Shown piece by piece: positions 40,401 through 63,315 of a DNA stretch of 64,000 nt (the first letter of the stretch is position 1; every line of letters begins with the position of its first letter). The position numbers were made by a program, and so were the translations under genes. This DNA is from Odontesthes bonariensis (Eukaryota > Chordata > Actinopteri > Atheriniformes > Atherinopsidae). Where the stretch lies: NCBI RefSeq assembly GCF_027942865.1, contig NC_134522.1:30429349-30493348 (forward strand). Reading direction: 5' to 3'. The notes under the pieces were generated by a model. It saw only the letters and a list, made by a program, of their open reading frames with translations. It was not told the DNA's origin and made no database searches.

Positions 40401-41372
40401 TCTCTTTCAAGTGGTTCTGCCTGCCTCCTGCATGTATTTATGCTCATTTGCATCTGTTTTCCCACTGGTTTCATCTCTTTTTAGTGGTTCTGCTTGCCTC
40501 CTGCATGTATTTATGCTCATTTGCATCTGTTTTCCCACTGGTTTCATCTCTTTCTGGTGGTTCTGTGTGCCTCCTGCATGTATTTATGCTCATTTGCATC
40601 TGTTTTCCCACTGGTTTCATCTCTTTCTAGTGGTTCTGTGTGCCTCCTGCATGTATTTATGCTCATTTGCATCTGTTTTTTCACTGGTTTCATCTCTTTC
40701 TAGTGGTTTTGTGTGTCTCCTGCATGTATCTGTCCTCATTTACATCTGTTTTCCCACTGGTTTCATCTCTTTCTGGTGGTTTTGTGTGCCTCCTGCATGT
40801 ATTTATGCTCATTTACATCCGTTTTCCTACTGGTTTCATCTCTTTCTGGTGGTTCTGTGTGCCTCCTGCATGTATTTATGCTCATTTGCATCTGTTTTCC
40901 CACTGGTTTCATCTCTTTCTAGTGGTTCTGTGTGCCTCCTGCATGTATTTATGCTCATTTGCATCTGTTTTCCCACTGGTTTCATCTCTTTCTGGTGGTT
41001 CTGTGTGCCTCTTTTGGAGTTGCCATAACTCAGCCATCCGACATCGCAGAGACCTCATTCAAAGTTTATATGTGACAGGAGACTCTCGACTTTAACATAA
41101 CTAAAATATTTTTTTATTGGACGGGCAGTAGATTGGCACCCATCCAAAATTTCTTCAGAAATTTTCTAGTTATTTATCTATTATCTGAGCAGAACAGTCA
41201 CCAACCACATCTTCCATGCTGAGCGTAAGTCTGCCCACAGTTTGTGTGCGGGCACACTGGTGTGAACTCACGTGCACAACCTTGTCCACAGAGGGGGAGG
41301 GACCTGAAAGTTTTATCAGTTCACATTTTCCGACTTTAGACTCGGAATTTTGACAACCTGCCAACGGCAGCT
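37464..41372. mobile_element. 3.9-kb TTAA-flanked inverted-repeat element with internal minisatellite
   Basis: TTAA lies on both sides (37460-37463 and 41373-41376), and the empty site CCACTTAATGAAAG exists at about 34803. The ends are imperfect inverted repeats (AGCTGTCGTCGGCA against the complement AGCTGCCGTTGGCA). This fits a piggyBac-like non-autonomous element. No transposase frame is visible. Inside are four copies of a block containing TAACTCAGCCATAC...AGAGACCTCATTCAAAG (near 37900, 38890, 39060, 41025) and a 1.9-kb array of 73-bp units. TA as target (Tc1-like) is a possible alternative reading. Confidence 0.78.
39137..41012 (+). repeat. 73-bp minisatellite, about 25.7 units
   Basis: The unit runs from CATCTGTTTTCCCACTGGTT through GGTTCTGTGTGCCTCCTGCA to TATTTATGCTCATTTG, 73 bases long (for example 39210 to 39283). 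Units differ at a few positions, such as CTAGTGG/CTGGTGG/CTGTTGG. Since 73 is not a multiple of three, all three forward frames stay open over long stretches. The resulting 140-290-codon frames are by-products of the repeat and not genes. Confidence 0.96.
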
Positions 41373-41909: not shown

Positions 41910-41983
41910 GGCGCTGTCGCACATTTGGTCAAAGTGCCTGTCTAGTAAACAGGAGATCCTGGCTTCAAATCCCAGCAGTGCCT
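41910..41983 (+). pseudogene. tRNA-Thr relic
   Basis: Homologous to the tRNA-Thr genes, but the D arm is damaged (GTCGCACATTTGG), the anticodon loop reads CTAGTAA and the T stem has a C-C mismatch. Confidence 0.8.
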
Positions 41984-43681: not shown

Positions 43682-44269
43682 GTAAGTTTGTTTTCTGTGT
43701 TGTTTATGGTGCATTATCCCAATGGAAAATGCAGTGTGAAGTGCAGGGCTGGGCAGTAAAGCAGAACTTAACATGTTGAATGCCGAGCTGTGAATGTTGG
43801 CACTCAAATAACAATCAAAAATGTTTATGTTTTAATAAAATGCTGAGATCCAAATATCCAAATGCTGACATTGTGTCTTTGTTAGCCTAATGCACAAGGC
43901 AGAGAGAGAGAGAGCGATTCTGTTGTCAAGAACTTGGGAGCTAATGTGCCCTGTTAGCACTTAAGCACTTCGTGGATACTACTGAAACGTGAAGATTGTG
44001 ACAAATTTGTTTTGTTTAGATCAACCACTCTTAGAGATCGCATGAAACACCGATGACAGTGTCTTAGCTCTGTGTTTTGGTAACCCAGCTTGATCGTCGG
44101 AGCCCAGTCCACTGACTCAGTAGCCAACAACGCGCTGGGGCAGCCTTCAAAACAAAGCCCAAACGTAGCCCATATTACATTACTGTTGATTGGCATTTAA
44201 CAACATAATACTTTACTGCACTACTACTAAACAGTTAGATTTCGCACATACCTTTGACGAAGTGGTCAC
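43682..44269. other. DNA between the YqaJ-like exon and the microRNA array
   Basis: Would be intron if the upstream exon is live. A GAGAGAGAGAGA run lies at about 43902. No hairpin or exon is recognised. A palindrome-like GTTAGCACTTAAGCACTT at 43953 resembles the microRNA seed but lacks a proper stem. Confidence 0.4.
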
Positions 44270-44281
44270 CGCTCAATCTCA

Positions 44282-44343
44282 GATCACTTCAAATGAGTCA
44301 CTCCTGATTCTTGTGCTCAAAAGTGCTTCTCTTTGGGGTTGTC
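44282..44343 (+). ncRNA. mir430: miR-430 hairpin delta, partial unit 0
   Basis: Class delta: the 3' arm AAAGTGCTTCTCTTTGGGGT (seed at 44321) pairs with a 5' arm of the ACCTCAAAGGAGTCACT type. It is the closest class to zebrafish miR-430c as I remember it. This copy has TTCAAATGAG in the 5' arm, which weakens the stem slightly. Confidence 0.85.
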
Positions 44344-44489
44344 TTGGTAGTGAAAATGTACAAGATCTGAACCTTTGACACAAACTGGATTACTTCTAGG
44401 GATGACATGTGATTTTCCAAGTCAAATAGAAGATCAATATTGTGGCCACGATTAGAATGATACTTATTTTCTATCGGAAGCGAGACTTT

Positions 44490-44568
44490 GTCATGATAAG
44501 TGCCCTAATAGAAACACTGAGCTGTTCCTCATTATAGTAAGTGCTTCTTGTTGGGATAGTTTCATGAC
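44490..44568 (+). ncRNA. mir430: miR-430 hairpin epsilon, unit 0
   Basis: Class epsilon: the stem base GTCATGA/TCATGAC encloses a 3' arm TAAGTGCTTCTTGTTGGG (seed at 44539). This copy has GGGATAG where the others have GGGGTAG. Confidence 0.87.
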
Positions 44569-44762
44569 CTACAGATCTTCCTCGTGAGCTGAACGGCAAG
44601 CTCACCGTTATCCACTTTTTTTTGAGAACATGGTAGAAAGTCCTGTTGAGTTTGGGTGTGATTCTGAACAGACTCCTTCAGCGATTGAAAACATTTCCTG
44701 GACTGTCTTCCAAAGAATAAGAAATGATCTCAAATAGTCGTGTGGATACCTCAGTAGGACAT

Positions 44763-44826
44763 GCACTTCAACTTTATGCACATTCTTTGGCGAAAATGGT
44801 GGAAAGTGCTTTGAAGTTGGGGTGTG
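44763..44826 (+). ncRNA. mir430: miR-430-like hairpin zeta, unit 0 copy 1
   Basis: Class zeta, carried by the ~164-bp sub-repeat. 5' arm GCACTTCAACTTTATGCAC and 3' arm AAAGTGCTTTGAAGTTGGGG pair almost throughout with one small bulge, around a loop of about 14 bases (CTTTGGCGAAAATGG). Confidence 0.85.
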
Positions 44827-44926
44827 ATTCTTAACTGACTGCTTCAAATATTGGACAAGATTCCAGGACTGTCAACCAAATAGTAGGAAACTCTTGAAAA
44901 TTCATGTGGATTCCTCAGTAGGACAT

Positions 44927-44990
44927 GCACTTCAACTTTATGCACATTCTCTGGAGAAAATGGTGGAAAGTGCTTTGAAGTTGGGGTGTG
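44927..44990 (+). ncRNA. mir430: miR-430-like hairpin zeta, unit 0 copy 2
   Basis: Arms identical to copy 1; the loop reads CTCTGGAGAAAATGG. Confidence 0.85.
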
Positions 44991-45090
44991 ATTCTTAACT
45001 TACTGCTTCAGCGATTGAAGACATTTCCAGGACTGTCTTCTAAATAGTAGGAAACTCTTGAAAATTCATGTGGATTCCTCAGTAGGACAT

Positions 45091-45153
45091 GCACTTCAAC
45101 TTTATGCACATTCTTTGGCGAAAATGGTGGAAAGTGCATGACGTTTGGGTGGG
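45091..45153 (+). ncRNA. mir430: Zeta-last hairpin, unit 0
   Basis: Last sub-repeat of the unit. The 3' arm diverges to AAAGTGCATGACGTTTGGGT, keeping AAAGTGC but losing the T after it, so target choice would differ. Confidence 0.6.
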
Positions 45154-45515
45154 ATTCTTGCCTCACTGTATGATGAATCCAGACTCTTAAATCTTTCCAC
45201 AGTGTGGGGAGCCAATTTACAATCCACCCACTTTTTCTGTCTCTTACACTTGATACCAGACTATACATTTGGTTTTGTCTTGTTTTGAAGTACGTGTGAT
45301 GGAACTCCAACTGGAGGCTTCCTTTGTCAAACAAGTTTCATGGAGCAAAACTGCAGAAAGCTGATTGATAACTCATCAACACCTAACTGCCCTCATGTCT
45401 GCATTCATTCCAAAACGATTCTTCTTTGAATGGTTGTTTAATGGCCCATTGCCTGGACCATAGAAACCTTGTGGAAAAGGAAGGTGGAGTTTGTTTGAAC
45501 AACAAACACTGAGCA

Positions 45516-45522
45516 TATAAAA
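45516..45522 (+). promoter_or_regulatory. TATA box, unit 1
   Basis: CATATAAAATGGG, preceded by TTGTTTGAACAACAAACAC (Sox/Fox-like) and TTTAATGGCCCATTG (Nanog/CCATT-like) within ~90 bp. A CACACTCACC start-like element lies ~30 bp downstream. Confidence 0.75.
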
Positions 45523-45620
45523 TGGGCAACTCTGTTCGACACACTCACCAAGTTGGAAATGCAACGTGGAGGACACAAGAAAGCATCAACTGGACCGAGG
45601 AGAAATTAATGTAAGAAAAA

Positions 45621-45685
45621 AATCGGATTCATTGTATGTGCTGACTTGTGTTTGAGTTCAGGAAGTGCTTCTGGTTGGGGCGATT
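45621..45685 (+). ncRNA. mir430: miR-430 hairpin alpha, unit 1
   Basis: Class alpha: the 3' arm AAGTGCTTCTGGTTGGGGCG (seed at 45663) faces a 5' arm beginning AATCGG that pairs largely through G-U pairs. It is the weakest stem of the six classes. It starts only ~10 bases after the GTAAGA donor. Confidence 0.68.
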
Positions 45686-45734
45686 GTACACGACAAATGC
45701 TATTGACTGCAACTGAAGCTAGCATATGAGTTTA

Positions 45735-45817
45735 TCACATGGAGACCACCTCAAACAGACACACTGATGGTTCTTGATTTCATAAGTGCTTCTCTTTTGG
45801 GGTTGTTTCGCATGTGA
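45735..45817 (+). ncRNA. mir430: miR-430 hairpin beta, unit 1
   Basis: Class beta: stem base TCACATG/CATGTGA, 5' arm GGAGACCACCTCAAACAGAC, 3' arm TAAGTGCTTCTCTTTTGGGG (seed at 45784). A long, well-paired hairpin of 83 nt. Confidence 0.9.
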
Positions 45818-45865
45818 GATTTTCTTCAATAAGACATGACTGTTCTTTCCTGAATTTGTCCCCAA

Positions 45866-45930
45866 CATTATCTTAACACAGGCACTGACTACATTTCTTA
45901 AAAAAGTAAGTGCTACTTGTTGGGGTAATC
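45866..45930 (+). ncRNA. mir430: miR-430 hairpin gamma, unit 1
   Basis: Class gamma: 5' arm CATTATCTTAACACAGGCAC, 3' arm TAAGTGCTACTTGTTGGGGT (seed at 45908), closing on ATTA/TAAT. It differs from the others by A after the seed. Confidence 0.85.
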
Positions 45931-46128
45931 TTGCAGACGGCTCTCATTCAAAAATCCTACTGCAAAATATGAACTATAGATAAAAATGTATTTGCATGGA
46001 ATTTCTATTTAATTTTTACCTAATTTGAGCATTTACATGGCTTTGAAGTGAAATAGTGCAACACTCTGGGACAGACCACATCCACTGCGTGAATGTGAAG
46101 CCTCATTTTTGTGGGCAAATCACTCTCA

Positions 46129-46190
46129 GATCACCTCAAAGGAGTCACTCCTGATTCTTGTGCTCAAAAGTGCTTCTCTTTGGGGTTGTC
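46129..46190 (+). ncRNA. mir430: miR-430 hairpin delta, unit 1
   Basis: 5' arm ATCACCTCAAAGGAGTCACT with intact seed AAGTGCT in the 3' arm. This is the reference form of the class. Confidence 0.9.
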
Positions 46191-46334
46191 TTGGTAGTGA
46201 AAATGTACAAGATCTGAACCTTTTAAAAAAACTATTACTTCTAGGGATGACATGTGATTTTCCAAGTCAAATAGAAGATCAATATTGTGGTCACGATTAG
46301 AATGACACTTATTTTCTATCAGAAGCGAGACTTT

Positions 46335-46413
46335 GTCATGATAAGTGCCCTAATAGAAACACTGAGCTGTTCCTCATTATAGTAAGTGCTTCTTGTTGGG
46401 GTAGTTTCATGAC
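46335..46413 (+). ncRNA. mir430: miR-430 hairpin epsilon, unit 1
   Basis: The 3' arm ends GTTGGGGTAG. The stem base GTCATGA/TCATGAC is intact. Confidence 0.9.
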
Positions 46414-46604
46414 CTGCAGACCTCGTGTGAGCTGAACGGCAAGCTCACCGTTATCCACTTTTTTTGAGAACACGTTGGAAAGTCCTGTTGAGTTTGGGTG
46501 TGATTCTGAACAGACTCCTTCAGCGATTGAAGACATTTCCTGGACTGTCTTCCAAAGAATAAGAAATGATCTCAAATAGTCGTGTGGATACCTCAGTAGG
46601 ACAT

Positions 46605-46668
46605 GCACTTCAACTTTATGCACATTCTTTGGCGAAAATGATAGAAAGTGCTTTGAAGTTGGGGTGTG
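46605..46668 (+). ncRNA. mir430: miR-430-like hairpin zeta, unit 1 copy 1
   Basis: Loop variant GCGAAAATGATAG; both arms as in unit 0. Confidence 0.85.
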
Positions 46669-46768
46669 ATTCTTAACTGACTGCTTCAGCGATTGAAGAC
46701 ATTTCCAGGACTGTCTTCTAAATAGTAGGAAACTCTTGAAAATCCATGTGGATTCCTCAGTAGGACAT

Positions 46769-46832
46769 GCACTTCAACTTTATGCACATTCTTTGGGGAA
46801 AATGGTGGAAAGTGCTTTGAAGTTGGGGTGTG
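46769..46832 (+). ncRNA. mir430: miR-430-like hairpin zeta, unit 1 copy 2
   Basis: The extra sub-repeat that makes this unit ~1.84 kb. Loop variant TTTGGGGAAAATGG. Confidence 0.85.
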
Positions 46833-46932
46833 ATTCTTAACTGACTGCTTCAGTTATTGGACAAGATTCCAGGACTGTCAACCAAATAGTAGGGAACTCT
46901 TGAAAATTCATGTGGATTCCTCAGTAGGACAT

Positions 46933-46995
46933 GCACTTCAACTTTATGCACATTCTTTGGCGAAAATGGTGGAAAGTGCATGAGGTTGGGGTGGG
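46933..46995 (+). ncRNA. mir430: Zeta-last hairpin, unit 1
   Basis: 3' arm AAAGTGCATGAGGTTGGGGT; the position after AAAGTGC is A. Confidence 0.6.
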
Positions 46996-47357
46996 ATTCT
47001 TGCCTCACTGTATGATGAATCAAGACTCTTAAATCTTTCCACAGTTTGGGGAGCCAATTTACAATCCACCCACTTTTTCTGTCTCTTACACTTGATACCA
47101 GACTATATATTTGGTTTTGTCTTGTTTTGAAGTACGTGTGATGGAACTCCAACTGGAGGCTTCCTTTGTCAAACAAGTTTCATGGAGCAAACCTGCAGAA
47201 AGCTGATTGATAACTCATCAACACCTAACTGCCCTCATGTCTGCATTCATTCCAAAACGATTCTTCTTTTAATGGTTGTTTAATGGCCCATTGCCTGGAC
47301 CATAGAAACCTTGTGGAAAAGGAAGGTGGAGTTTGTTTGAACCACAAGCATTGAGCA

Positions 47358-47364
47358 TATAAAA
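47358..47364 (+). promoter_or_regulatory. TATA box, unit 2
   Basis: CATATAAAATAGG. The upstream element reads GTTTGAACCACAAGCATTG, changed from the AACAAACAC form of units 1, 3, 5 and 6. Confidence 0.7.
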
Positions 47365-47461
47365 TAGGCAACTCTGTTCAACACACTCACCAAGTTGGAA
47401 ACGCAACATGGAGGACACAAGAAAGCATCAACGGGATCCAGGAGAAATTCAAGTAAGAAAA

Positions 47462-47526
47462 AATCGGATTCATTGTATGTGCTGACTTGTGTTTGAGTTC
47501 AGGAAGTGCTTCTGGTTGGGGCGATT
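47462..47526 (+). ncRNA. mir430: miR-430 hairpin alpha, unit 2
   Basis: Arms as in unit 1. The exon-donor junction just upstream reads TTCAAGTAAG instead of TTAATGTAAG. Confidence 0.68.
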
Positions 47527-47575
47527 GTACATGACAAATGCTATTGACTGTAATTGAAGCTAGCAGATGAGTGTA

Positions 47576-47658
47576 TCACATGGAGACCACCTCAAACAGA
47601 CACACTGATGGTTCTTGATTTCATAAGTGCTTCTCTTTTGGGGTTGTTTCGCATGTGA
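47576..47658 (+). ncRNA. mir430: miR-430 hairpin beta, unit 2
   Basis: Stem base TCACATG/CATGTGA retained; seed intact. Confidence 0.9.
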
Positions 47659-47706
47659 GATTTTCTTCAATAAGACATGACTGTTCTTTCCTGAACTTGT
47701 CCCCAA

Positions 47707-47771
47707 CATTACCTTAACACAGGCACTGACTACATTTTTTCAAGAAGTAAGTGCTACTTGTTGGGGTAATC
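47707..47771 (+). ncRNA. mir430: miR-430 hairpin gamma, unit 2
   Basis: 5' arm CATTACCTTAACAC; loop variant ATTTTTTCAAGAAG in place of ATTTCTTAAAAAAG. Confidence 0.86.
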
Positions 47772-47969
47772 TTGCAGACGGCTCTCATTCAAAAATCCTT
47801 CTACAAAATATGAACTATAGATAAAAATGTATTTGCAAGGAATTTCTATTTAATTTCTACCTAATTTGAGCATTTACATGGCTTTGAAGTGAAAGAGTGC
47901 GACACTCTGGAACAGACCACATCCACTGGGTAAATGTGAAGCCTCATTTTTGAGGGCAAATCACTCTCA

Positions 47970-48031
47970 GATCACCTCAAAGGAGTCACTCCTGATTCTT
48001 GTGCTCAAAAGCTCTTCTCTTTGGGATTGTC
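47970..48031 (+). ncRNA. mir430: miR-430 hairpin delta, unit 2, seed changed
   Basis: The 3' arm reads AAAAGCTCTTCTCTTTGGGA. The seed AAGTGCT has become AAGCTCT, and GGGG has become GGGA. The hairpin may still form but would not target the usual sites. Confidence 0.6.
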
Positions 48032-48177
48032 TTGGTAGTGAAAATGTACAAGATCTGAACCTTTGAGACAAACTGGATTACTTTTAGGGATGACATGTGA
48101 TTTTCCAAGTCAAATAGAAGATCAATATTGTGGTCACGATTAGAATGACACTTGTTTTCTATCAGAAGCGAGACTTT

Positions 48178-48256
48178 GTCATGATAAGTGCCCTAATAGA
48201 AACACTGAGCTGTTCCTCATTATAGTAAGTGCTTCTTGTTGGGGTAGTTTCATGAC
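48178..48256 (+). ncRNA. mir430: miR-430 hairpin epsilon, unit 2
   Basis: Identical over both arms to unit 1. Confidence 0.9.
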
Positions 48257-48449
48257 CTGCAGACCTCGTGTGAGCTGAACGGCAAGCTCAACGTTATCCA
48301 CTTTTTTTTTTAGAACATGGTGGAAAGTCCTGTTGAGTTTGGGTGTGATTCTGAACAGACTCCTTCAGCGATTGAAAACATTTCCTGGACTGTCTTCCAA
48401 AGAATAAGAAATGATCTCAAATAGTGGTGTGGATACCTCAGTAGGACAT

Positions 48450-48513
48450 GCACTTCAACTTTATGCACATTATTTGGGGAAAATGGTGGAAAGTGCTTTG
48501 AAGTTGGGGTGTG
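48450..48513 (+). ncRNA. mir430: miR-430-like hairpin zeta, unit 2
   Basis: 5' arm tail reads CACATTATTTGGGG in place of CACATTCTTTGG; seed intact. Confidence 0.84.
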
Positions 48514-48613
48514 ATTCTTACCTGACTGCTTCAATTATTGGACAAGATTCCAGGACTGTCAACCAAATAGTAGGGAACTCTTGAAAATCCATGTGGATTC
48601 CTCAGTAGGACAT

Positions 48614-48676
48614 GCACTTCAACTTTATGCACATTCTTTGGAGAAAATGGTGGAAAGTTCATGAGGTTGGGGTGGG
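48614..48676 (+). ncRNA. mir430: Zeta-last hairpin, unit 2, seed changed
   Basis: 3' arm AAAGTTCATGAGGTTGGGGT; AAAGTGC has become AAAGTTC. Confidence 0.5.
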
Positions 48677-49038
48677 ATTCTTGCCTCACTGTATGATGAA
48701 TCCAGACTCTTAAATCTTTCCACAGTGTGGGGAGCCAATTTACAATCCACCCACTTTTTCTGTCTCTTACACTTGATACCAGACTATACATTTGGTTTTG
48801 TCTTGTTTTGAAGTACGTGTGATGGAACTTCAACTGGAAGCTTCCTTTGTCAAACAAGTTTCATGGAGCAAAACTGCAGAAAGCTGATTGATAACTCATC
48901 AACACCTAACTGCCCTCATGTCTGCATTCATTCCAAAACGATTCTTCTTTGAATGGTTGTTTAATGGCCCATTGCCTGGACCATAGAAACCTTGTGGAAA
49001 AGGAAAGTGGAGTTTGTTTGAACAACAAACACTTAGCA

Positions 49039-49045
49039 TATAAAA
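49039..49045 (+). promoter_or_regulatory. TATA box, unit 3
   Basis: CATATAAAATGGG with AACAACAAACACTTAG upstream. Confidence 0.75.
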
Positions 49046-49143
49046 TGGGCAACTCTGTTCAACACACTCACCAAGTTGGAAACGCAACGTGGAGGACACA
49101 AGAAAGCATCAACTGGACCGAGGAGAAATTAATGTAAGAAAAA

Positions 49144-49208
49144 AATCGGATTCATTGTATGTGCTGACTTGTGTTTGAGTTCAGGAAGTGCTTCTGGTTG
49201 GGGCGATT
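49144..49208 (+). ncRNA. mir430: miR-430 hairpin alpha, unit 3
   Basis: Arms as in unit 1. Confidence 0.68.
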
Positions 49209-49257
49209 GTACACGACAAATGCTATTGACTGCAACTGAAGCTAGCAGATGAGCGTA

Positions 49258-49340
49258 TCACATGGAGACCACCTCAAACAGACACACTGATGATTCTTGA
49301 TTTCATAAGTGCTTCTCTTTTGGGGTTGTTTCTCTTGTGA
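49258..49340 (+). ncRNA. mir430: miR-430 hairpin beta, unit 3
   Basis: The stem base is weakened: the 3' side reads TCTCTTGTGA instead of TCGCATGTGA. The same change is in units 4 and 6. Confidence 0.87.
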
Positions 49341-49388
49341 GATTTTCTTCAATAAGACATGACTGTTCTTTCCTGAACTTGTCCCCAA

Positions 49389-49453
49389 CATTACCTTAAC
49401 ACAGGCACTGACTACATTTCTTAAAAAAGTAAGTGCTACTTGTTGGGGTAATC
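49389..49453 (+). ncRNA. mir430: miR-430 hairpin gamma, unit 3
   Basis: 5' arm CATTACCTTAACAC with loop ATTTCTTAAAAAAG. Confidence 0.86.
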
Positions 49454-49651
49454 TTGCAGACGGCTCTCATTCAAAAATCCTACTACAAAATATGAACTAT
49501 AGATAAAAATGTATTTGCAAGGAATTTCTATTTAATTTTTACCTAATTTGAGCATTTACATGGCTTTGAAGTGAAAGAGTGCGACACTCTGGGACAGACC
49601 ACATCCACTGGGTAAATGTGAAGCCTCATTTTTGTGGGCAAATCACTCTCA

Positions 49652-49714
49652 GATCACCTCAAAGGAGTCACTCCTGATTCTTTGTGCTCAAAAGTGCTTC
49701 TCTTTGGGGTTGTC
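49652..49714 (+). ncRNA. mir430: miR-430 hairpin delta, unit 3
   Basis: One extra T in the loop (GATTCTTTGTGC); seed intact. Confidence 0.9.
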
Positions 49715-49856
49715 TTGGTAGTGAAAATGTACAAGATCTGAACCTCTTAAAAAAACTATTACTTCTAGGGATGACGTGATTTTCCAAGTCAAATAGAGGA
49801 TCAATATTGTGGTCACGATTAGAATTATACTTATTTTCTATCGGAAGCGAGACTTT

Positions 49857-49935
49857 GTCATGATAAGTGCCCTAATAGAAACACTGAGCTGTTCCTCATT
49901 ATAGTAAGTGCTTCTTGTTGGGGTAGTTTCATGAC
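49857..49935 (+). ncRNA. mir430: miR-430 hairpin epsilon, unit 3
   Basis: Arms unchanged. The DNA just 5' has TCGGAAGCGAG, as in unit 0. Confidence 0.9.
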
Positions 49936-50130
49936 CTGCAGATCTTCCTCGTGTGAGCTGAACGGCAAGCTCACCGTTATCCACTTTTTTTGAGAACATG
50001 GTGGAAAGTCCTGTTAAGTTTGGGTGTGATTCTGAACAGACTCCTTCAGCGATTGAAGACATTTCCTGGACTGTCTTCCAAAGAATAAGAAATGATCTCA
50101 AATAGTCGTGTGGATACCTCAGTAGGACAT

Positions 50131-50194
50131 GCACTTCAACTTTATGCACATTCTTTGGCGAAAATGGTGGAAAGTGCTTTGAAGTTGGGGTGTG
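50131..50194 (+). ncRNA. mir430: miR-430-like hairpin zeta, unit 3
   Basis: Arms and loop as in unit 0 copy 1. Confidence 0.85.
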
Positions 50195-50294
50195 ATTCTT
50201 AACTTACTGCTTCAGCGATTGAAGACATTTCCAGGACTGTCTTCTAAATAGTAGGAAACTCTTGAAAATCCATGTGGATTCCTCAGTAGGACAT

Positions 50295-50357
50295 GCACTT
50301 CAACTTTATGCACATTCTTTGGAGAAAATGGTGGAAAGTGCATGAGGTTGGGGTGGG
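50295..50357 (+). ncRNA. mir430: Zeta-last hairpin, unit 3
   Basis: 3' arm AAAGTGCATGAGGTTGGGGT. Confidence 0.6.
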
Positions 50358-50719
50358 ATTCTTGCCTCACTGTATGATGAATCCAGACTCTTAAATCTTT
50401 CCACAGTGTGGGGAGCCAATTTACAATCCACCCACTTTTTCTGTCACTTACACTTGATACCAGACTATACATTTGGTTTTGTCTTGTTTTGAAGTACGTG
50501 TGATGGAACTCCAACTGGAAGCTTCCTTTGTCAAACAAGTTTCATGGAGCAAACCTGCAGAAAGTTGATTGATAACTCATCAACACCTAACTGCTCTCAT
50601 GTCTGCATTCATTCCAAAACGATTCTTCTTTGAATGGTTGTTTAATGGCCCATTGCCTGGACCATAGAAACCTTGTGGAAAAGGAAGGTGGAGTTTCTTT
50701 GAACCACAAGCAGTGAGCA

Positions 50720-50726
50720 TATAAAA
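50720..50726 (+). promoter_or_regulatory. TATA box, unit 4
   Basis: CATATAAAATGGG. The upstream element is the TTTGAACCACAAGCAGTG variant shared with unit 2. Confidence 0.72.
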
Positions 50727-50824
50727 TGGGCAACTCTGTTCAACACACTCACCAAGTTGGAAACGCAACATGGAGGACACAAGAAAGCATCAACTGGACC
50801 CAGGAGAAATTCATGTAAGAAAAA

Positions 50825-50889
50825 AATCGGATTTATTGTATGTGCTGACTTGTGTTTGAGTTCAGGAAGTGCTTCTGTTTGGGGCGATT
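50825..50889 (+). ncRNA. mir430: miR-430 hairpin alpha, unit 4
   Basis: The 3' arm reads AAGTGCTTCTGTTTGGGGCG, with TGTTT in place of TGGTT. Confidence 0.68.
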
Positions 50890-50938
50890 GTACACGACAA
50901 ATGCTATTGACTGCAACTGAAGCTAGCATATGAGTTTA

Positions 50939-51021
50939 TCACATGGAGACCACCTCAAACAGACACACTGATGATTCTTGATTTCATAAGTGCTTCTCTT
51001 TTGGGGTTGTTTCTCTTGTGA
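50939..51021 (+). ncRNA. mir430: miR-430 hairpin beta, unit 4
   Basis: TCTCTTGTGA stem variant; seed intact. Confidence 0.87.
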
Positions 51022-51069
51022 GATTTTCTTCAATAAGACATGACTGTTCTTTCCTGAACTTGTCCCCAA

Positions 51070-51134
51070 CATTACCTTAACACAGGCACTGACTACATTT
51101 TTTCAAGAAGTAAGTGCTACTTGTTGGGGTAATC
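51070..51134 (+). ncRNA. mir430: miR-430 hairpin gamma, unit 4
   Basis: Loop ATTTTTTCAAGAAG, as in units 2 and 5. Confidence 0.86.
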
Positions 51135-51332
51135 TTGCAGACGGCTCTCATTCAAAAATCCTTCTACAAAATATGAACTATAGATAAAAATGTATTTGCA
51201 AGGAATTTCTATTTAATTTCTACCTAATTTGAGCATTTACATGGCTTTGAAGTGAAAGAGTGCGACACTCTGGGACAGACCACATCCACTGCGTAAATGT
51301 GAAGCCTCATTTTTGTGGGCAAATCACTCTCA

Positions 51333-51395
51333 GATCACCTCAAAGGAGTCACTGCTGATTCTTTGTGCTCAAAAGTGCTTCTCTTTGGGGTTGTC
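51333..51395 (+). ncRNA. mir430: miR-430 hairpin delta, unit 4
   Basis: The loop side reads GTCACTGCTGATT (C to G); seed intact. Confidence 0.89.
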
Positions 51396-51541
51396 TTGGT
51401 AGTGAAAATGTACAAGATCTGAACCTTTGAGACAAACTGGATTACTTTTAGGGATGACATGTGATTTTCCAAGTCAAATAGAAGATCAATATTGTGGTCA
51501 CGATTAGAATGACACTTGTTTTCTATCAGAAGCGAGACTTT

Positions 51542-51620
51542 GTCATGATAAGTGCCCTAATAGAAACACTGAGCTGTTCCTCATTATAGTAAGTGCTTCT
51601 TGTTGGGGTAGTTTCATGAC
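51542..51620 (+). ncRNA. mir430: miR-430 hairpin epsilon, unit 4
   Basis: Arms unchanged. Confidence 0.9.
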
Positions 51621-51808
51621 CTGCAGACCTTTGAGCTGAACGGCAAGCTCACCGTTATCCACTTTTTTTGAGAACACGGTGGAAAGTCGTGTTAAGTTTG
51701 GGTGTGATTCTGAACAGACTCCTTCAGCGATTGAAGACATTTCCTGGACTGTCTTCCAAAGAATAAGAAATGATCTCAAATAGTGGTGTGGATACCTCAG
51801 TAGGACAT

Positions 51809-51872
51809 GCACTTCAACTTTATGCACATTCTTTGGCGAAAATGGTGGAAAGTGCTTTGAAGTTGGGGTGTG
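51809..51872 (+). ncRNA. mir430: miR-430-like hairpin zeta, unit 4 copy 1
   Basis: Arms as in unit 0. Confidence 0.85.
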
Positions 51873-51972
51873 ATTCTTAACTTACTGCTTCAAATATTGG
51901 ACAAGATTCCAGGACTGTCAACCAAATAGTAGGAAACTCTTGAAAATTCATGTGGATTCCTCAGTAGGACAT

Positions 51973-52036
51973 GCACTTCAACTTTATGCACATTCTCTGG
52001 AGAAAATGGTGGAAAGTGCTTTGAAGTTGGGGTGTG
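51973..52036 (+). ncRNA. mir430: miR-430-like hairpin zeta, unit 4 copy 2
   Basis: Loop CTCTGGAGAAAATGG, identical to unit 0 copy 2. This suggests that unit 0 and unit 4 share a source. Confidence 0.85.
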
Positions 52037-52136
52037 ATTCTTAACTTACTGCTTCAGCGATTGAAGACATTTCCAGGACTGTCTTCTAAATAGTAGGAAA
52101 CTCTTGAAAATTCACGTGGATTCCTCAGTAGGACAT

Positions 52137-52200
52137 GCACTTCAACTTTATGCACATTCTTTGGCGAAAATGGTGGAAAGTGCATGAGGTTTGGGGTGGG
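52137..52200 (+). ncRNA. mir430: Zeta-last hairpin, unit 4
   Basis: 3' arm AAAGTGCATGAGGTTTGGGG, one T longer than in the other units. Confidence 0.6.
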
Positions 52201-52562
52201 ATTCTTGCCTCACTGTATGATGAATCCAGACTCTTAAATCTTTCCACAGTGTGGGGAGCCAATTTACAATCCACCCACTTTTTCTGTCTCTTACACTTGA
52301 TACCAGACTATACATTTGATTTTGTCTTGTTTTGAAGTACGTGTGATGGAACTCCAACTGGACGCTTCCTTTGTCAAACAAGTTTCATGGAGCAAAACTG
52401 CAGAAAGCTGATTGATAACTCATCAACACCTAACTGCCCTCATGTCTGCATTCATTCCAAAACGATTCTTCTTTGAATGGTTGTTTAATGGCCCATTGCC
52501 TGGACCATAGAAACCTTGTGGAAAAGGAAGGTGGAGTTTGTTTGAACAACAAACACTGAGCA

Positions 52563-52569
52563 TATAAAA
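52563..52569 (+). promoter_or_regulatory. TATA box, unit 5
   Basis: CATATAAAATGGG with the AACAACAAACACTGAG upstream form. Confidence 0.75.
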
Positions 52570-52667
52570 TGGGCAACTCTGTTCAACACACTCACCAAGT
52601 TGGAAACGCAACATGGAGGACACAAGAAAGCATCAACGGGATCCAGGAGAAATTAATGTAAGAAAAA

Positions 52668-52732
52668 AATCGGATTCATTGTATGTGCTGACTTGTGTTT
52701 GAGTTCAGGAAGTGCTTCTGGTTGGGGCGATT
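52668..52732 (+). ncRNA. mir430: miR-430 hairpin alpha, unit 5
   Basis: Arms as in unit 1. Confidence 0.68.
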
Positions 52733-52781
52733 GTACATGACAAATGCTATTGACTGTAAATGAAGCTAGCAGATGAATGTA

Positions 52782-52864
52782 TCACATGGAGACCACCTCA
52801 AACAGACACACTGATGGTTCTTGATTTCATAAGTGCTTCTCTTTTGGGGTTGTTTCGCATGTGA
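52782..52864 (+). ncRNA. mir430: miR-430 hairpin beta, unit 5
   Basis: TCACATG/CATGTGA base present; seed intact. Confidence 0.9.
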
Positions 52865-52912
52865 GATTTTCTTCAATAAGACATGACTGTTCTTTCCTGA
52901 ACTTGTCCCCAA

Positions 52913-52977
52913 CATTACCTTAACACAGGCACTGACTATATTTTTTCAAGAAGTAAGTGCTACTTGTTGGGGTAATC
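52913..52977 (+). ncRNA. mir430: miR-430 hairpin gamma, unit 5
   Basis: Loop side reads CTGACTATATTTTTTC (C to T against unit 2). Confidence 0.86.
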
Positions 52978-53175
52978 TTGCAGATGGCTCTCATTCAAAA
53001 ATCCTTCTACAAAATATGAACTATAGATAAAAATGTATTTGCAAGGAATTTCTATTTAATTTCTACCTAATTTGAGCATTTACATGGCTTTGAAGTGAAA
53101 GAGTGCGACACTCTGGAACAGACCACATCCACTGGGTAAATGTGAAGCCTCATTTTTGAGGGCAAATCACTCTCA

Positions 53176-53238
53176 GATCACCTCAAAGGAGTCACTCCTG
53201 ATTCTTTGTGCTCAAAAGCTCTTCTCTTTGGGATTGTC
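53176..53238 (+). ncRNA. mir430: miR-430 hairpin delta, unit 5, seed changed
   Basis: Same AAGCTCT seed and GGGA change as unit 2, with the extra loop T of unit 3. Confidence 0.6.
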
Positions 53239-53384
53239 TTGGTAGTGAAAATGTACAAGATCTGAACCTTTGAGACAAACTGGATTACTTTTAGGGATGA
53301 CATGTGATTTTCCAAGTCAAATAGAAGATCAATATTGTGGTCACGATTAGAATGACACTTGTTTTCTATCAGAAGCGAGACTTT

Positions 53385-53463
53385 GTCATGATAAGTGCCC
53401 TAATAGAAACACTGAGCTGTTCCTCATTATAGTAAGTGCTTCTTGTTGGGGTAGTTTCATGAC
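53385..53463 (+). ncRNA. mir430: miR-430 hairpin epsilon, unit 5
   Basis: Arms unchanged. Confidence 0.9.
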
Positions 53464-53656
53464 CTGCAGACCTCGTGTGAGCTGAACGGCAAGCTCAGCG
53501 TTATCCACTTTTTTTTTTAGAACATGGTGGAAAGTCCTGTTGAGTTTGGGTGTGATTCTGAACAGACTCCTTCAGCGATTGAAAACATTTCCTGGACTGT
53601 CTTCCAAAGAATAAGAAATGATCTCAAATAGTCGTGTGGATACCTCAGTAGGACAT

Positions 53657-53720
53657 GCACTTCAACTTTATGCACATTATTTGGGGAAAATGGTGGAAAG
53701 TGCTTTGAAGTTGGGGTGTG
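53657..53720 (+). ncRNA. mir430: miR-430-like hairpin zeta, unit 5
   Basis: CACATTATTTGGGG variant shared with unit 2. Confidence 0.84.
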
Positions 53721-53820
53721 ATTCTTACCTGACTGCTTCAATTATTGGACAAGATTCCAGGACTGTCAACCAAATAGTAGGGAACTCTTGAAAATCCATG
53801 TGGATTCCTCAGTAGGACAT

Positions 53821-53883
53821 GCACTTCAACTTTATGCACATTCTTTGGAGAAAATGGTGGAAAGTTCATGAGGTTGGGGTGGG
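53821..53883 (+). ncRNA. mir430: Zeta-last hairpin, unit 5, seed changed
   Basis: AAAGTTC, as in unit 2. Confidence 0.5.
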
Positions 53884-54245
53884 ATTCTTGCCTCACTGTA
53901 TGATGAATCCAGACTCTTAAATCTTTCCACAGTGTGGGGAGCCAATTTACAATCCACCCACTTTTTCTGTCTCTTACACTTGATACCAGACTATACATTT
54001 GGTTTTGTCTTGTTTTGAAGTACGTGTGATGGAACTTCAACTGGAAGCTTCCTTTGTCAAACAAGTTTCATGGAGCAAACCTGCAGAAAGCTGATTGATA
54101 ACTCATCAACACCTAACTGCCCTCATGTCTGCATTCATTCCAAAACGATTCTTCTTTGAATGGTTGTTTAATGGCCCATTGCCTGGACCATAGAAACCTT
54201 GTGGAAAAGGAAGGTGGAGTTTGTTTGAACAACAAACACTGAGCA

Positions 54246-54252
54246 TATAAAA
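54246..54252 (+). promoter_or_regulatory. TATA box, unit 6
   Basis: CATATAAAATGGG with AACAACAAACACTGAG upstream. Confidence 0.75.
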
Positions 54253-54350
54253 TGGGCAACTCTGTTCAACACACTCACCAAGTTGGAAACGCAACGTGGA
54301 GGACACAAGAAAGCATCAACTGGACCGAGGAGAAATTAATGTAAGAAAAA

Positions 54351-54415
54351 AATCGGATTCATTGTATGTGCTGACTTGTGTTTGAGTTCAGGAAGTGCTT
54401 CTGGTTAGGGCGATT
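54351..54415 (+). ncRNA. mir430: miR-430 hairpin alpha, unit 6
   Basis: The 3' arm has TTAGGG where the others have TTGGGG. Confidence 0.65.
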
Positions 54416-54464
54416 GTACACGACAAATGCTACTGACTGCAACTGAAGCTAGCAGATGAGCGTA

Positions 54465-54547
54465 TCACATGGAGACCACCTCAAACAGACACACTGATGA
54501 TTCTTGATTTCATAAGTGCTTCTCTTTTGGGGTTGTTTCTCTTGTGA
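54465..54547 (+). ncRNA. mir430: miR-430 hairpin beta, unit 6
   Basis: TCTCTTGTGA stem variant, as in unit 3. Confidence 0.87.
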
Positions 54548-54595
54548 GATTTTCTTCAATAAGACATGACTGTTCTTTCCTGAACTTGTCTCCAA

Positions 54596-54660
54596 CATTA
54601 CCTTAACACAGGCACTGACTACATTTCTTAAAAAAGTAAGTGCTACTTGTTGGGGTAATC
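54596..54660 (+). ncRNA. mir430: miR-430 hairpin gamma, unit 6
   Basis: Loop ATTTCTTAAAAAAG. The flank has GTCTCCAAC in place of GTCCCCAAC. Confidence 0.86.
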
Positions 54661-54858
54661 TTGCAGACGGCTCTCATTCAAAAATCCTACTACAAAATAT
54701 GAACTATAGATAAAAATGTATTTGCAAGGAATTTCTATTTAATTTTTACCTAATTTGAGCATTTACATGGCTTTGAAGTGAAAGAGTGCGACACTCTGGG
54801 ACAGACCACATCCACTGCGTAAATGTGAAGCCTCACTTTTGTGGGCAAATCACTCTCA

Positions 54859-54921
54859 GATCACCTCAAAGGAGTCACTCCTGATTCTTTGTGCTCAAAA
54901 GTGCTTCTCTTTGGGGTTGTC
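54859..54921 (+). ncRNA. mir430: miR-430 hairpin delta, unit 6
   Basis: Seed intact; extra loop T. Confidence 0.9.
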
Positions 54922-55065
54922 TTGGTAGTGAAAATGTACAAGATCTGAACCTTTTAAAAAAACTATTACTTCTAGGGATGACATGTGATTTTGCAAGTCA
55001 AATAGAAGATCAATATTGTGGTCACGATTAGAATGACACTTGTTTTCTATCAGAAGCGAGACTTT

Positions 55066-55144
55066 GTCATGATAAGTGCCCTAATAGAAACACTGAGCTG
55101 TTCCTCATTATAGTAAGTGCTTCTTGTTGGGGTAGTTTCATGAC
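55066..55144 (+). ncRNA. mir430: miR-430 hairpin epsilon, unit 6
   Basis: Arms unchanged. Confidence 0.9.
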
Positions 55145-55331
55145 CTGCAGATCTTCCTCGTGTGAGCTGAACGGCAAGCTCACCGTTATCCACTTTTTTT
55201 GAGAACATGGTGGAAAGTCCTGTTGAGTTTGGGTGTGATTCTGAACAGACTCCTTCAGCGATTGATGACATTTGTCTTCCAAAGAATAAGAAATGATCTC
55301 AAATAGTCGTGTGGATACCTCAGTAGGACAT

Positions 55332-55395
55332 GCACTTCAACGTTATGCACATTCTTTGGAGAAAATGGTGGAAAGTGCTTTGAAGTTGGGGTGTG
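55332..55395 (+). ncRNA. mir430: miR-430-like hairpin zeta, unit 6
   Basis: 5' arm reads CTTCAACGTTATGCAC (T to G). Confidence 0.82.
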
Positions 55396-56645
55396 ATTCT
55401 TACCTGACTGCTTCAATTATTGGACAAGTTTCCAGGACTGTCTTCTAAATAGTAGGAAACTGAAACTTGAAAATTCATGTGGATTCCTCAGTAGGACATG
55501 CACTTCAACTTTATGCACATTCTTTGGAATTCTGGAATTCTTGCCTCACTGTATGATGAATCCAGACTCTTAAATCTTTCTACAGTCTGGGGAGCCAATT
55601 TACAACCAGACTATACATTTGGTTTTGTCTTGTTTTGAAGTACGTGTGATGGAACTCCAACTGGAAGCTTTCTTTGTCAAACAAGTTTCATGGAGCAAAC
55701 CTGCAGAAAGCTGATTGATCACTCAAAGTGAGGACATTTAGTTTCTGGGTTACCAGGTAGATCATTACTGAGAGTTTTCAAAGAATGAAGAAGTAAAGGA
55801 AGTAAATCAGATCCTCTCTGTGTCCAATGAGTGTGATCCTGACCGTATCCAAACCAGTCAAACTTCTGCTTAGTTCAGGTTCAGTTGAAGATTTAGTCAG
55901 TGGTGTTATTTATTTAGTCATTTACAAATCTGAAAAGTAGATCATAAACCAACTGAAGTTTGGTGGATTCTTTAAAGCACAGAGCAACGTCACCTCCCAA
56001 ACCCAACCCTGTCACTGGCTCTAAAGGAGAGGAGCCTGTTAGCGGAGGGCCCTGCTCAGAGTCCTGCTTTAGTGAACTACAGCAACCAAGTAAACCTGCG
56101 AGACTTCTGTTGAGATCAGACTGATCTATGAGGGCTTAAATATTCAATAAAGAGAAACATGCAGCTGAACCTAAATAAAACTTGAACAGAGAACTTACAG
56201 GAGAGGTTTTTAATGCTTTTATGCATCAATCTTTACTTCATTAGCTCCCTCCATGGGATTCAAATTTGGAACATTTTCCTAATAAAAGAAAAAGATGTCA
56301 AGGCTCAGAAAGCACCTTTATTATTCTTTTACTCTGTAATATGTAGAATCCATAAACTCATTTATTACCAGCTCTATCAGCATGAAGAGAATCCCCTTTT
56401 CTCCCAAAAGATCCCAGGTGCTGCTCCTGAGGTGTTTCTGTAAGTTTATCACACCAGCTTGTGAAATGAAATGAGTCCCTCTACAGTTGTTATATCAGCT
56501 GAGATTCAAACTAAAAGACACATTTTGTGTCTGAAACTGTAAGAGACTGTTAGAGTGGGACTGAAAGCAGATTCAGAGGGTTGTGATGTATGTGTTTCCA
56601 CCCAAATGATCTGATAACTGTCAGAGATGCAGCAGTGCTACTTTA

Positions 56646-57046
56646 GGCTGCGGCTACACGAAAACGTTTTTCACTGTAAACGATACTTTTTCTTATCGTT
56701 TCGCTGTCGCGGCCACACGGAGCCGGCGTTCCCACTACCCCAAAACGATAGTTTTTGAGAACGGGTTCCAGAGTGGGAAGATTTGAAAACGAGGTCGTTT
56801 CGTTTCCATTGTTACAGCGAAAACGTTTTTGCGTCAGTCAAACGTTGACGCTGTGAGCCAATTTTAACACTTCTCTATTGTCTCACAGCGTGGCGTGACA
56901 CAGTGGCGTGTGTACTGCATCGTTTCATCGTTTTCATCCGTTTTCGTCTGCACCTGAGTCTTTACCGCAGCGTTGCCGTGTGGTCGCAAGAATTTTCGTA
57001 CCCGTTTTAAAAAAAAACCTTGTTTCGTTTTCGTGTAGCCGTAGCC
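56646..57046. mobile_element. 401-bp MITE, copy C
   Basis: Same length, ends and TTA duplication as the copy-A element. It was therefore present before A and C separated. Confidence 0.8.
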
Positions 57047-57743
57047 TTAGAAGCTGCAGTTATTGGACACAATGAAAGCTGACCATCTCTGTGGCTCAGA
57101 GGAAAACTGAGCAACAAATGTTGTCAGTCTAAAGCTGAAATACTAAAGAATACTGCTCCTTATGTGGAACAAACCAAACTCCAGAGAAGCTGGAAGCACC
57201 ACTGCGACTGAACTTGTGACATCATCACAGTTTACGCAGCTTCCTCCAACATCTATGTCTCTTGAGGCCTTTACAAAATATATTTCTGACACTGATTTTT
57301 CTGATGAAGTGCTTTGTTTTATTGCCGCTTAAATGAAGCAAACAACGCCCTTGTTGTTTAAACTGCACCAACGTTGATTTATCTCTGTAATATCTTGTGT
57401 TCTGTTCTGGGTGTTCATTCATTACAGATTGTCCAAATAGTGAAATCTAAGTGAAAAGAAGCCCTGATATAAAGCAGAACTATTCATGATAAATGCTCTT
57501 AACCTGTTGTAGTTTCAGTGAATGTGATCAACACTCTGCAGCTGGTGTATTTAAGGTGATTTCTATAGTTTATATAGAATTATTCAATAGTTTATATAAC
57601 TTACAAATGAGGATATAAAGATGCAGCTAACAGCAAAGCTACATAGAAGGGAAAGTATCAGGCAGGCTCTGTCAGAGGTGACAGTGTAGAAACAGAGTGC
57701 AGCATAGAGGGAAGTACAGGTTAAGTGGTAGATTACATTTCTA

Positions 57744-57816
57744 CACCTGAACAGGGACTTGAACCCTGGACCCTCAGATTAAAAGTCTGATGCTTTACCA
57801 ACTGAGCTATCCAGGC
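57744..57816 (-). tRNA. tRNA-Lys (UUU), copy C
   Basis: 73 nt; both acceptor strands and the anticodon arm are as in copy A. Confidence 0.9.
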
Positions 57817-58264
57817 CCTATGAGAGTGTGTCTGAGTGACAGCTGACATCTGAAACACTTCCTGAGTCCAAAGCTGTGACGCTGTTTTCTGAACAAACGC
57901 CTGGTTGATGTGAACTTGTGTTGCAGCCACTGAGCATAAAGAAGAAGGCCTTCATGGAGGGAAACAGGGAGTTAAGGAGGAGTGTGAAGAAAAAAGGAAG
58001 AGAGCAAGTCGGTGGGAAACTATCTGCAGCAGAACAGTGTGAGGGCTGTGTGGTCAGGAATGGAAAAGCTCACAGGCTTTGGGATAATGTGGGATCAGAC
58101 AGATGGAAGAGTTCAGACAAACTCAGCATGCTGCTGCCTCCTGCTACAGACCTCACTTCCTCCATGTACCAACAGCTTCCCTGTCACACCTCAGCACATC
58201 TACATGAAACTATCAAATCTATAGGAAAATAAACTATCGCCTCATCTGCATACAAACAAAAGAG

Positions 58265-58456
58265 ATGATTGTGGATTTTAGGAGGAGCAGCAGGCAGCTG
58301 AACAGCGTCTCCATCCTCGGTGAAGAGGTGGTTGAGCATTACAGATACCTGAGGGTTCACCTGGACAGCAGACTGGACTGGAAATGCAACACTGAGGCTG
58401 TCTACAGGATGGGACATTCAGTAAACTATTCCTATAACTGTATATATGCTAACTGA
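58265..58456 (+). pseudogene. LINE reverse-transcriptase relic, uninterrupted, copy C
   Basis: MIVDFRRSSRQL, then VEHYRYLRVHLDSRLDWKC and NTEAVYRMG: the 3' end of a fish LINE reverse transcriptase, followed by a stop. It provides the pre-insertion state of the copy-A LINE at 2241. Confidence 0.65.
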
Positions 58457-59356
58457 GTTGGCATGGGTTGGTGCACTAAACACATGTTACAGAGTTGAAT
58501 ATTTCTGCATCTTTTAGTAAAAACAGGAAAGAATGAATGTATATTTCCAGCCAAATTCCCAATAAAGCTGCTCTCATCCACATATTTTTCTGTTTCTTCT
58601 GTCAGACGGCTAAACTGAAAATCAGCGCATTAAGACTACTCGTCAACTCGTGGTCACTTAAAGCATGTCCAGACTGTCGCTCTGCTCTAATAAAATCCTG
58701 ATTTTGTAACTGCAGCCTCATGTGAGAAAATCACCCTTCAGGTGACTTAAAGACAACATGTTGGCAGCGATTTCAGCTGCACTTACATGCAGCGTGATGT
58801 CCCACAGAGAAAGTTAGAGGCAGCAGAATGTCATGAAGGTTCCCTACACAGTCTATCCCGTGCATGTACGCTGGGACAACATGGTGGTCCAGTTAAATGG
58901 ACGAGTACACCTGGAACTGAAGCTGGACTTACCTGTGCATGCAAGCGTTCTGAATGTCCTGATCAAGATAAAAATATGTAACATACAGAACAAAAAGCAT
59001 CCATCTCCAGCTGAAAACATGAAACCTGCAGACTACAAATAAAATGTTCCACTGGGGACACCGACCCAAGTTGGTTTTTAGGAGGAAATTTCATAAAAAT
59101 CCTCAAAACCAGTTTTTCTTTTTTTGTGCAGACTTCAGGTTTTTGTTTTAAGTTTTGTACAAAGAAAATATAATGTAACCTCTCTTCAATGCATATTCAG
59201 AACTTATTTAAATCTCTTCCAGAAAAACTCTTGTTTTGATCATTTTCTTTAAAATAAAGATTTTTAAAAAGCTATTTGACCATGTGCTTTGTTTTACAGA
59301 GCTTTTTACTCAACTCATCTTCTTTCCAGAACACAACCATGACAGCACACACCTGA

Positions 59357-59428
59357 AGGCTCCACCGAGATTTGAACTGGGATCACTGGATTCAGAGTCC
59401 AGAGTGCTGACCTTTACACCATGGAACC
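59357..59428 (-). tRNA. tRNA-Gln (CUG), copy C
   Basis: 72 nt. T stem CCCAG/CTCGG has one mismatch. The acceptor is GGTTCCA/TGGAGCC with one G-U pair. Better preserved than copy A. Confidence 0.78.
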
Positions 59429-59576
59429 CCTTCCACAGTCAATTCATTCTCTCAGTCATGCAAATGCTTTTCAATGAAAGGGTTTTAGCAACGTGTTTTT
59501 TTGTTAATTTTTCAGTGATACTCTTACAGCTTGTATTCTCAGAACTGGCACGACAGTCAAGCAACACATTCTGTAT

Positions 59577-63303: not shown

Positions 63304-63315
63304 AGAGAAAAGCAC

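Follow-up and report, generated by a model that had tools for sequence, protein, structure and literature searches.

A tandem miR-430 array with multi-class units and two seeds in Odontesthes bonariensis

Described miR-430 arrays and the Odontesthes locus

The miR-430 family clears maternal messenger RNAs from the early embryo. In zebrafish, miR-430 genes have been described as the earliest and most highly expressed genes in the first wave of zygotic transcription (PMC6370886), and their locus as one that nucleates transcription bodies at zygotic transcription onset (PMC11021188). The chromosome 4 cluster consists of tandem multi-hairpin units on a chromosome that also holds zinc-finger genes (PMC6370886; PMC10547256), with a unit of 1129 bp and three miR-430 genes in the order a-c-b (PMC10417697, Table 1) and at least eight start sites detected by cap analysis of gene expression (CAGE), with a predicted TATA box and 6–9 miR430 genes each (PMC6370886). 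Here we describe a similarly tandem, multi-hairpin locus in Odontesthes bonariensis, lying in a stretch of 64,000 nucleotides of contig NC_134522.1 (hereafter the 64-kb window, to which all coordinates refer). From 44246 to 55720 its plus strand carries seven units in head-to-tail order, six of them complete and the last partial. That the locus is a fish miR-430 gene array we hold with very high confidence or better; the likeliest mechanism, which we propose with less confidence, is a zebrafish-like one with promoters inside the units.

A survey of fishes detected miR-430 in every fish studied, and its tables give repeat units of 251–1481 bp with 1–4 miR-430 genes each (Table 1) and cichlid units of 215–1128 bp with 1–4 sites (Table 2; PMC10417697). 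Against these listed units, and against the three genes of the zebrafish unit, the complete units here are longer (1681–1847 bp), hold 8–9 sites, fall into eight classes of site and combine two seeds. The survey was based on consensus repeats from short reads (PMC10417697), which may hide unit complexity. Zebrafish precursors have been quoted as >2000 (PMC10569791), whereas the 55 sites reported here were counted in the 64-kb window only. Xenopus miR-427, a related early-zygotic microRNA (miRNA) of maternal clearance, also occurs in multicopy arrays: X. laevis has 33 precursors, spread over 55 kb and both strands, and X. tropicalis has 171 (PMC10569791). The sites here occupy one strand. The array is of a known type; its unit is unusually large and complex compared with one survey, and what is known of miR-430 is unchanged by it.

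Units, hairpin classes and family membership

Unit borders were chosen by us, 75 bp 5′ of every alpha seed, giving U1 (44246–46092, 1847 bp), U2 (46093–47933, 1841 bp), U3 (47934–49616, 1683 bp), U4 (49617–51297, 1681 bp), U5 (51298–53140, 1843 bp), U6 (53141–54823, 1683 bp) and the partial U7 (54824–55720, 897 bp), with pairwise identities of 0.938–0.995 over ungapped columns. The first Rfam miR-430 match begins at 44280 and unit-like sequence ends at about 55720; a preliminary description of this DNA, made from its letters, had set the limits at 44270 and 55720, correct within about 25 bp. Repetition occurs at three levels. The smallest is a sub-repeat of 164–166 bp (158 bp in U7) in the order gamma0-gamma-(gamma)-gammaL, the next is the whole unit, and the largest is a step of 5207 bp that takes in three units; across this step identity is 0.984–1.000 (seven 250-bp bins, 48000–49749), and U3 and U6 are 99.5% identical. 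Copy number changes at all three levels: the 164-bp gamma sub-repeat, the 1.7–1.85-kb unit and the step of three units. From the TATAAAA and GTAAG of each complete unit the order is delta, epsilon (eps), zeta, alpha, beta, gamma0, one gamma or two, gammaL and then the next TATA; the set that follows the last candidate promoter ends early, at gamma. Seven units with every site on the plus strand constitute the tandem clustered organization typical of miR-430.

The motif AAGTGC-N5..9-TTGGG, sought on both strands, has 43 matches in the window, all of them on the plus strand within the array (44321–55390), whereas 100 shuffles averaged 0.27 and never exceeded 3, so that the recurring seed-spacer-TTGGG pattern of the preliminary description is borne out. 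AAGTGCT by itself occurs 56 times on the two strands of the window, 40 of these on the plus strand of the array (whole-window shuffles: mean 13.8, maximum 22). When altered seeds are included, there are 55 miR-430-like 3′-arm sites in eight classes (alpha 7, beta 7, gamma0 7, gamma 10, gammaL 6, delta 6, eps 6, zeta 6), 42 of which belong to the six hairpin classes alpha, beta, gamma, gammaL, eps and zeta. The earlier count of “about 48” hairpins matches neither of these figures nor the 36 copies that pass all tests, and its six classes from alpha to zeta are attainable by lumping gamma0, gamma and gammaL, related sub-types on whose treatment the choice between six and eight depends. A seed common to all classes, also claimed there, holds for the 44 sites with intact AAGTGC (40 AAGTGCT and 4 AAGTGCA) and not for the 11 that have lost it (gamma0 7, alpha 2, gammaL 2). 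The mature arms are identical in all copies of gamma (10/10), eps (6/6) and zeta (6/6).

Every one of the 55 sites was folded in a 97-nt window and compared with 200 dinucleotide shuffles per site. A z-score (z) below −2 was found at 36 sites (beta 7/7, gamma 10/10, eps 6/6, zeta 6/6, alpha 4/7, gammaL 3/6), in all of which AAGTGC is intact and the upstream arm pairs with 14–20 of the 22 mature bases; it was not reached in these windows at the other 19 (alpha 3, gamma0 7, gammaL 3, delta 6). The folding of each interval proposed in the preliminary description thus yields stable hairpins at 36/55 sites, where its placement of the motif on a hairpin 3′ arm stands, and fails for gamma0 and delta, which show no hairpin beyond shuffles. 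Mean fold energy is −28.2 kcal/mol over the 55 sites, 75% of which lie at or below −25, versus −17.7 kcal/mol and 11% in 300 control windows outside the array. A second search, which used many window lengths and no shuffle control and sought single-loop hairpins in which 14 or more mature bases pair upstream, recovered beta 7/7, gamma 10/10, gammaL 6/6, eps 6/6, zeta 6/6 and alpha 5/7, together with gamma0 6/7 (−15.8 to −32.0 kcal/mol) and delta 1/6 (weak, −11.1). In the predicted folds of six copies, one per hairpin class and compared with no null model, pairing is preserved at mature positions 10, 12, 13, 14, 16, 20 and 21 though both partners vary between classes.

The guide of zebrafish miR-430 lies on the 3′ arm, and the seed, tail, arm polarity and tandem layout found here all fit the family, as the earlier naming of a fish miR-430 cluster had it. 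Of the 55 sites, the Rfam model RF01413 (miR-430) picks up 12 at its gathering cut-off, with a best score of 72.1 bits (expect value (E) 6.5e-12), and 38 on the plus strand at E<1 (alpha 5, beta 7, gamma 8, gammaL 6, eps 6, zeta 6), with none of the 6 delta or 7 gamma0 sites matched at that level. Its plus-strand matches are 67–72 nt long and so fall inside the 60–85 nt first given for the hairpins. The array is a member of miR-430: covariance-model matches, the 3′-arm seed, the paired precursor hairpin and the tandem arrangement are all present, with delta (0/6) and gamma0 (0/7) lacking the hairpin. Because the gathering cut-off lists 12/55, annotation that relies on it undercounts; the earlier belief that annotation pipelines would overlook copies holds for this cut-off, the sole pipeline compared. 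Six weak mir-1420 matches in the E<1 list are all below gathering.

A profile that we built from 24 hairpins of the six hairpin classes (R1), of sequence only since RNAalifold gave no pair to build structure on, had 56 matches when E was allowed to reach 5: the 42 hairpin-class copies (including the 24 used in building), all 7 gamma0 and 6 delta sites, and one half hairpin in U7 (55495–55533, plus strand; 16.7 bits, model positions 2–45), which has a gamma-type 5′ arm and no 3′ arm. Its matches to gamma0 and delta were weak, and delta fitted only the 3′ part of the profile; outside the array no R1 match was found in the 64-kb window at E up to 5. Could the hairpins be, rather than miRNA genes, a chance property of a repeat such as a transposon-like element? 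Tandem copying does inflate their number—one hairpin copied seven times counts seven times—and zeta also matches RF01413 on the minus strand (6 matches of 30.4–37.6 bits, below gathering). However, each unit holds six hairpin classes with a common seed, tail and polarity on different 5′ arms (those of gamma and gammaL being alike), and with Rfam scores as high as the best one above, we consider a chance origin exceedingly improbable.

With U2 as the example and all features on the plus strand, the classes are placed as follows. The alpha hairpin spans 46127–46193, and its seven seed positions are 44321, 46168, 48009, 49692, 51373, 53216 and 54899, the seed being lost at 48009 and 53216. The beta hairpin (46341–46409; seeds at 44539, 46384, 48227, 49906, 51591, 53434 and 55115) has z from −3.35 to −4.87 and exceeds Rfam gathering in 6/7 copies. 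The gamma0 site (46442–46511, limits approximate; 44638, 46480, 48325, 50006, 51684, 53532 and 55215) carries AAGTCC or AAGTCG where the seed would stand, and has z from +0.52 to −1.05. The gamma hairpin (46601–46672) recurs once or twice per unit on the 164-bp sub-repeat, at 44804, 44968, 46646, 46810, 48491, 50172, 51850, 52014, 53698 and 55373, with z from −2.22 to −4.45. Next is gammaL (46929–46999; 45132, 46974, 48655, 50336, 52178 and 53862, reading AAGTTCA at 48655 and 53862), with z below −3 in 3/6. The delta site (47493–47522; 45663, 47504, 49186, 50867, 52710 and 54393) keeps its seed intact and has z above 0 in 6/6. The eps hairpin (47583–47651; 45784, 47625, 49307, 50988, 52831 and 54514) has z below −3 in 6/6 and Rfam matches below gathering, and the zeta hairpin (47705–47774; 45908, 47749, 49431, 51112, 52955 and 54638) has z from −2.69 to −4.22, with 6/6 above gathering.

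The beta 5′ arm carries AAGTGCC in 7/7 copies, which we considered as the seed of a second, 5′-arm guide and rejected on the predicted U2 fold: the partner bases of the 22-nt 3′ guide begin at 46346, within AAGTGCC (46343–46349), and that sequence would therefore not stand at the head of a normally cut 5′ product.

The gamma0 and delta sites are most simply read as relics, gamma0 because its seed is lost and its fold is no better than shuffles, delta because seed and tail are kept but no partner arm was found. Extended to the array as a whole, such a reading would make it mostly decaying, with a minority of copies still yielding miR-430 and the others spread as relics by tandem duplication. 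The 13/55 sites in these two classes favour it, as do four further seed losses (in alpha and gammaL, common to U3 and U6), two seed-intact U1 sites with z of only −1.23 and −1.41, and the truncation of U7. Yet 36/55 sites pass all tests, and beta, gamma, eps and zeta do so for seed and fold in 29/29 copies; we regard general decay as improbable, and read the array as a miR-430 locus with some apparent relics among its members.

Candidate promoters and signs of selection

In all six complete units TATAAAA (45516, 47358, 49039, 50720, 52563 and 54246) is followed at a constant 95-bp spacing by GTAAG, which marks at motif level a candidate promoter, first exon and splice donor (U2: 47320–47460, plus strand). 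TATA promoters are described as repeated along the zebrafish cluster; the likeness here is one of motifs, in 6/6 complete units. The putative first exon (45560–45615 and equivalents) reads ATG GAG GAC ACA AGA in U2, U4 and U5 and has GTG in place of ATG in U1, U3 and U6; promoter and exon might be derived from a coding gene.

We think it moderately probable that RNA polymerase II starts at this unit-internal promoter, upstream of the splice donor, and produces a polycistronic primary miRNA (pri-miRNA). By analogy with zebrafish we infer that initiation would occur at the TATA of each unit, upstream of a GTAAG donor that may be spliced, and that the pri-miR-430 would carry eps, zeta, alpha, beta, gamma and gammaL, running as far as the next promoter or perhaps past it. 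Drosha and Dicer would then free guides of ~22 nt from the 3′ arms, with the seed AAGUGCU in most and AAGUGCA in gammaL. Such guides would be made as zygotic transcription begins; their targets would be maternal mRNAs, to be repressed and deadenylated. On the plus strand of the array AATAAA and ATTAAA are absent, as compared with 78 occurrences outside it, and the first AATAAA downstream lies at 56146; the absence is suggestive only, because the array is one copied unit of ~1.8 kb effective length in which 2–3 would be expected. Among transcription-factor motifs counted on the plus strand, there is one octamer in the array versus 26 outside; a Sox-like motif occurs in 5/6 units (19 outside) and the loosely Nanog-like CATCAA 12 times (20 outside). 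We draw no conclusion from these counts.

Several results weigh against a conserved array with promoters in its units. The motif TATAWAW has one extra occurrence in the array (47104) and 21 on the plus strand of the 52,525 bp outside it, where it is as frequent as the ~1 per unit inside; the first TATA comes only after the leading half unit (44246 to ~45500), which no promoter of this kind precedes within the array; and the promoter/exon stretch, variable in 15/140 columns versus 127/1666 overall, shows no extra conservation. The first and last of these points favour the rival reading that a real miR-430 array is transcribed from a promoter outside it and that the unit TATA boxes are chance motifs copied with the repeat, as does the fish survey, which for three species detected no promoter within the repeat unit (PMC10417697). 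On the other side, the TATA-GTAAG spacing is constant in 6/6 units, though all copies stem from one unit, and the zebrafish cluster is described as using at least two internal promoters by uniquely mapped reads (PMC6370886). An outside promoter is a serious but lesser possibility, and we prefer initiation within the units.

Tests of selection, made on the six complete units with gapped columns excluded (hence with the second gamma copy left out), add to these adverse points. Hairpins are variable in 23/438 columns against 104/1228 elsewhere (Fisher p 0.017), but 116/1665 circular shifts are equally low; the mature arms of the six classes (7/132 versus 120/1534, p 0.19) do not differ significantly; and the four best classes, chosen post hoc (1/88 versus 126/1578, p 0.007), give a weak signal that 48/1665 shifts match. 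A spacer at 47000–47319 is less variable (11/320) than the hairpins. RNAalifold, run on 24 of the 42 hairpin-class copies as aligned by MAFFT, returned zero pairs, and the 5′ arms appear to be misaligned between classes. The case for protection of the hairpins by selection is weak, and we do not take it as proof.

Surroundings of the array and its seed variants

The array is flanked on both sides by a segmental duplication: the block that follows it (56142–64000) is 98–99% (98.2–98.7%) identical to 1–2243 plus 7156–12779, and parts recur at 31316–34632. Given this duplication, a further array might lie to the left of the window. A 4.9-kb insert in the left copy only (~2243–7156) carries a reverse transcriptase frame of the long interspersed nuclear element (LINE) type, and a C2H2 zinc-finger frame is present in both copies (9792–10259 and 61029–61496). 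Two V-set-like frames resemble T cell receptor V segments, one at 19320–19690 (24.4 bits, just below the Pfam cut-off of 26) and one at 21300–21660 (49.0 bits, above it). Behind the latter stand CACAGTG and, after 23 bases, ACAAAAACC, which together we take to be a recombination signal; behind the former stand CACAATG and, after 22 bases, ACAAAAACT. Elsewhere, a 73-bp tandem repeat (39139–41011; 25.7 copies, 94% matches) has long open stretches in several plus-strand frames. The window holds about ten transfer RNA (tRNA) genes or pseudogenes (10 in each of two scans, the sets partly different): three tRNA-Thr genes at 36590–37377 and a fourth tRNA match at 41910–41983 lie within repeated blocks, and others are at 1597, 8120, 33625, 57744, 59355 and 59576.

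Within the array, the gamma class, which looks b-like, has a 5′ arm in common with gammaL, whose seed is AAGTGCA in 4/6 copies and AAGTTCA in the other two; AAGTGCT and AAGTGCA coexist inside a single unit. In the predicted U2 folds, A8 of gammaL is paired and U8 of gamma is unpaired. In the fish survey, AAGUGCA is given for cichlids only, alongside AAGUGCU in the group as it is here, and variant b was not found in cichlids; each cichlid cluster listed there has one seed, whereas both occur in the same unit here (PMC10417697). That survey was the only paper we found that deals with miR-430 together with AAGUGCA.

A single transcription unit may, we propose tentatively and as a rather unlikely possibility, yield both AAGUGCU and AAGUGCA guides, the AAGUGCA class having arisen from gamma by the 164-bp duplication, with a U8-to-A change that completed AUGCAC/GUGCAU pairing and was favoured by hairpin stability. 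If the proposal is true, miR-430 seed evolution would be driven by precursor folding in a fast-turning, three-level array. At its curated cut-off, one family model finds about one fifth of the sites in this locus. With its eight related site classes, apparent relics and two seeds per unit, this compact array offers a natural record of how members of such arrays are gained, lost and changed.

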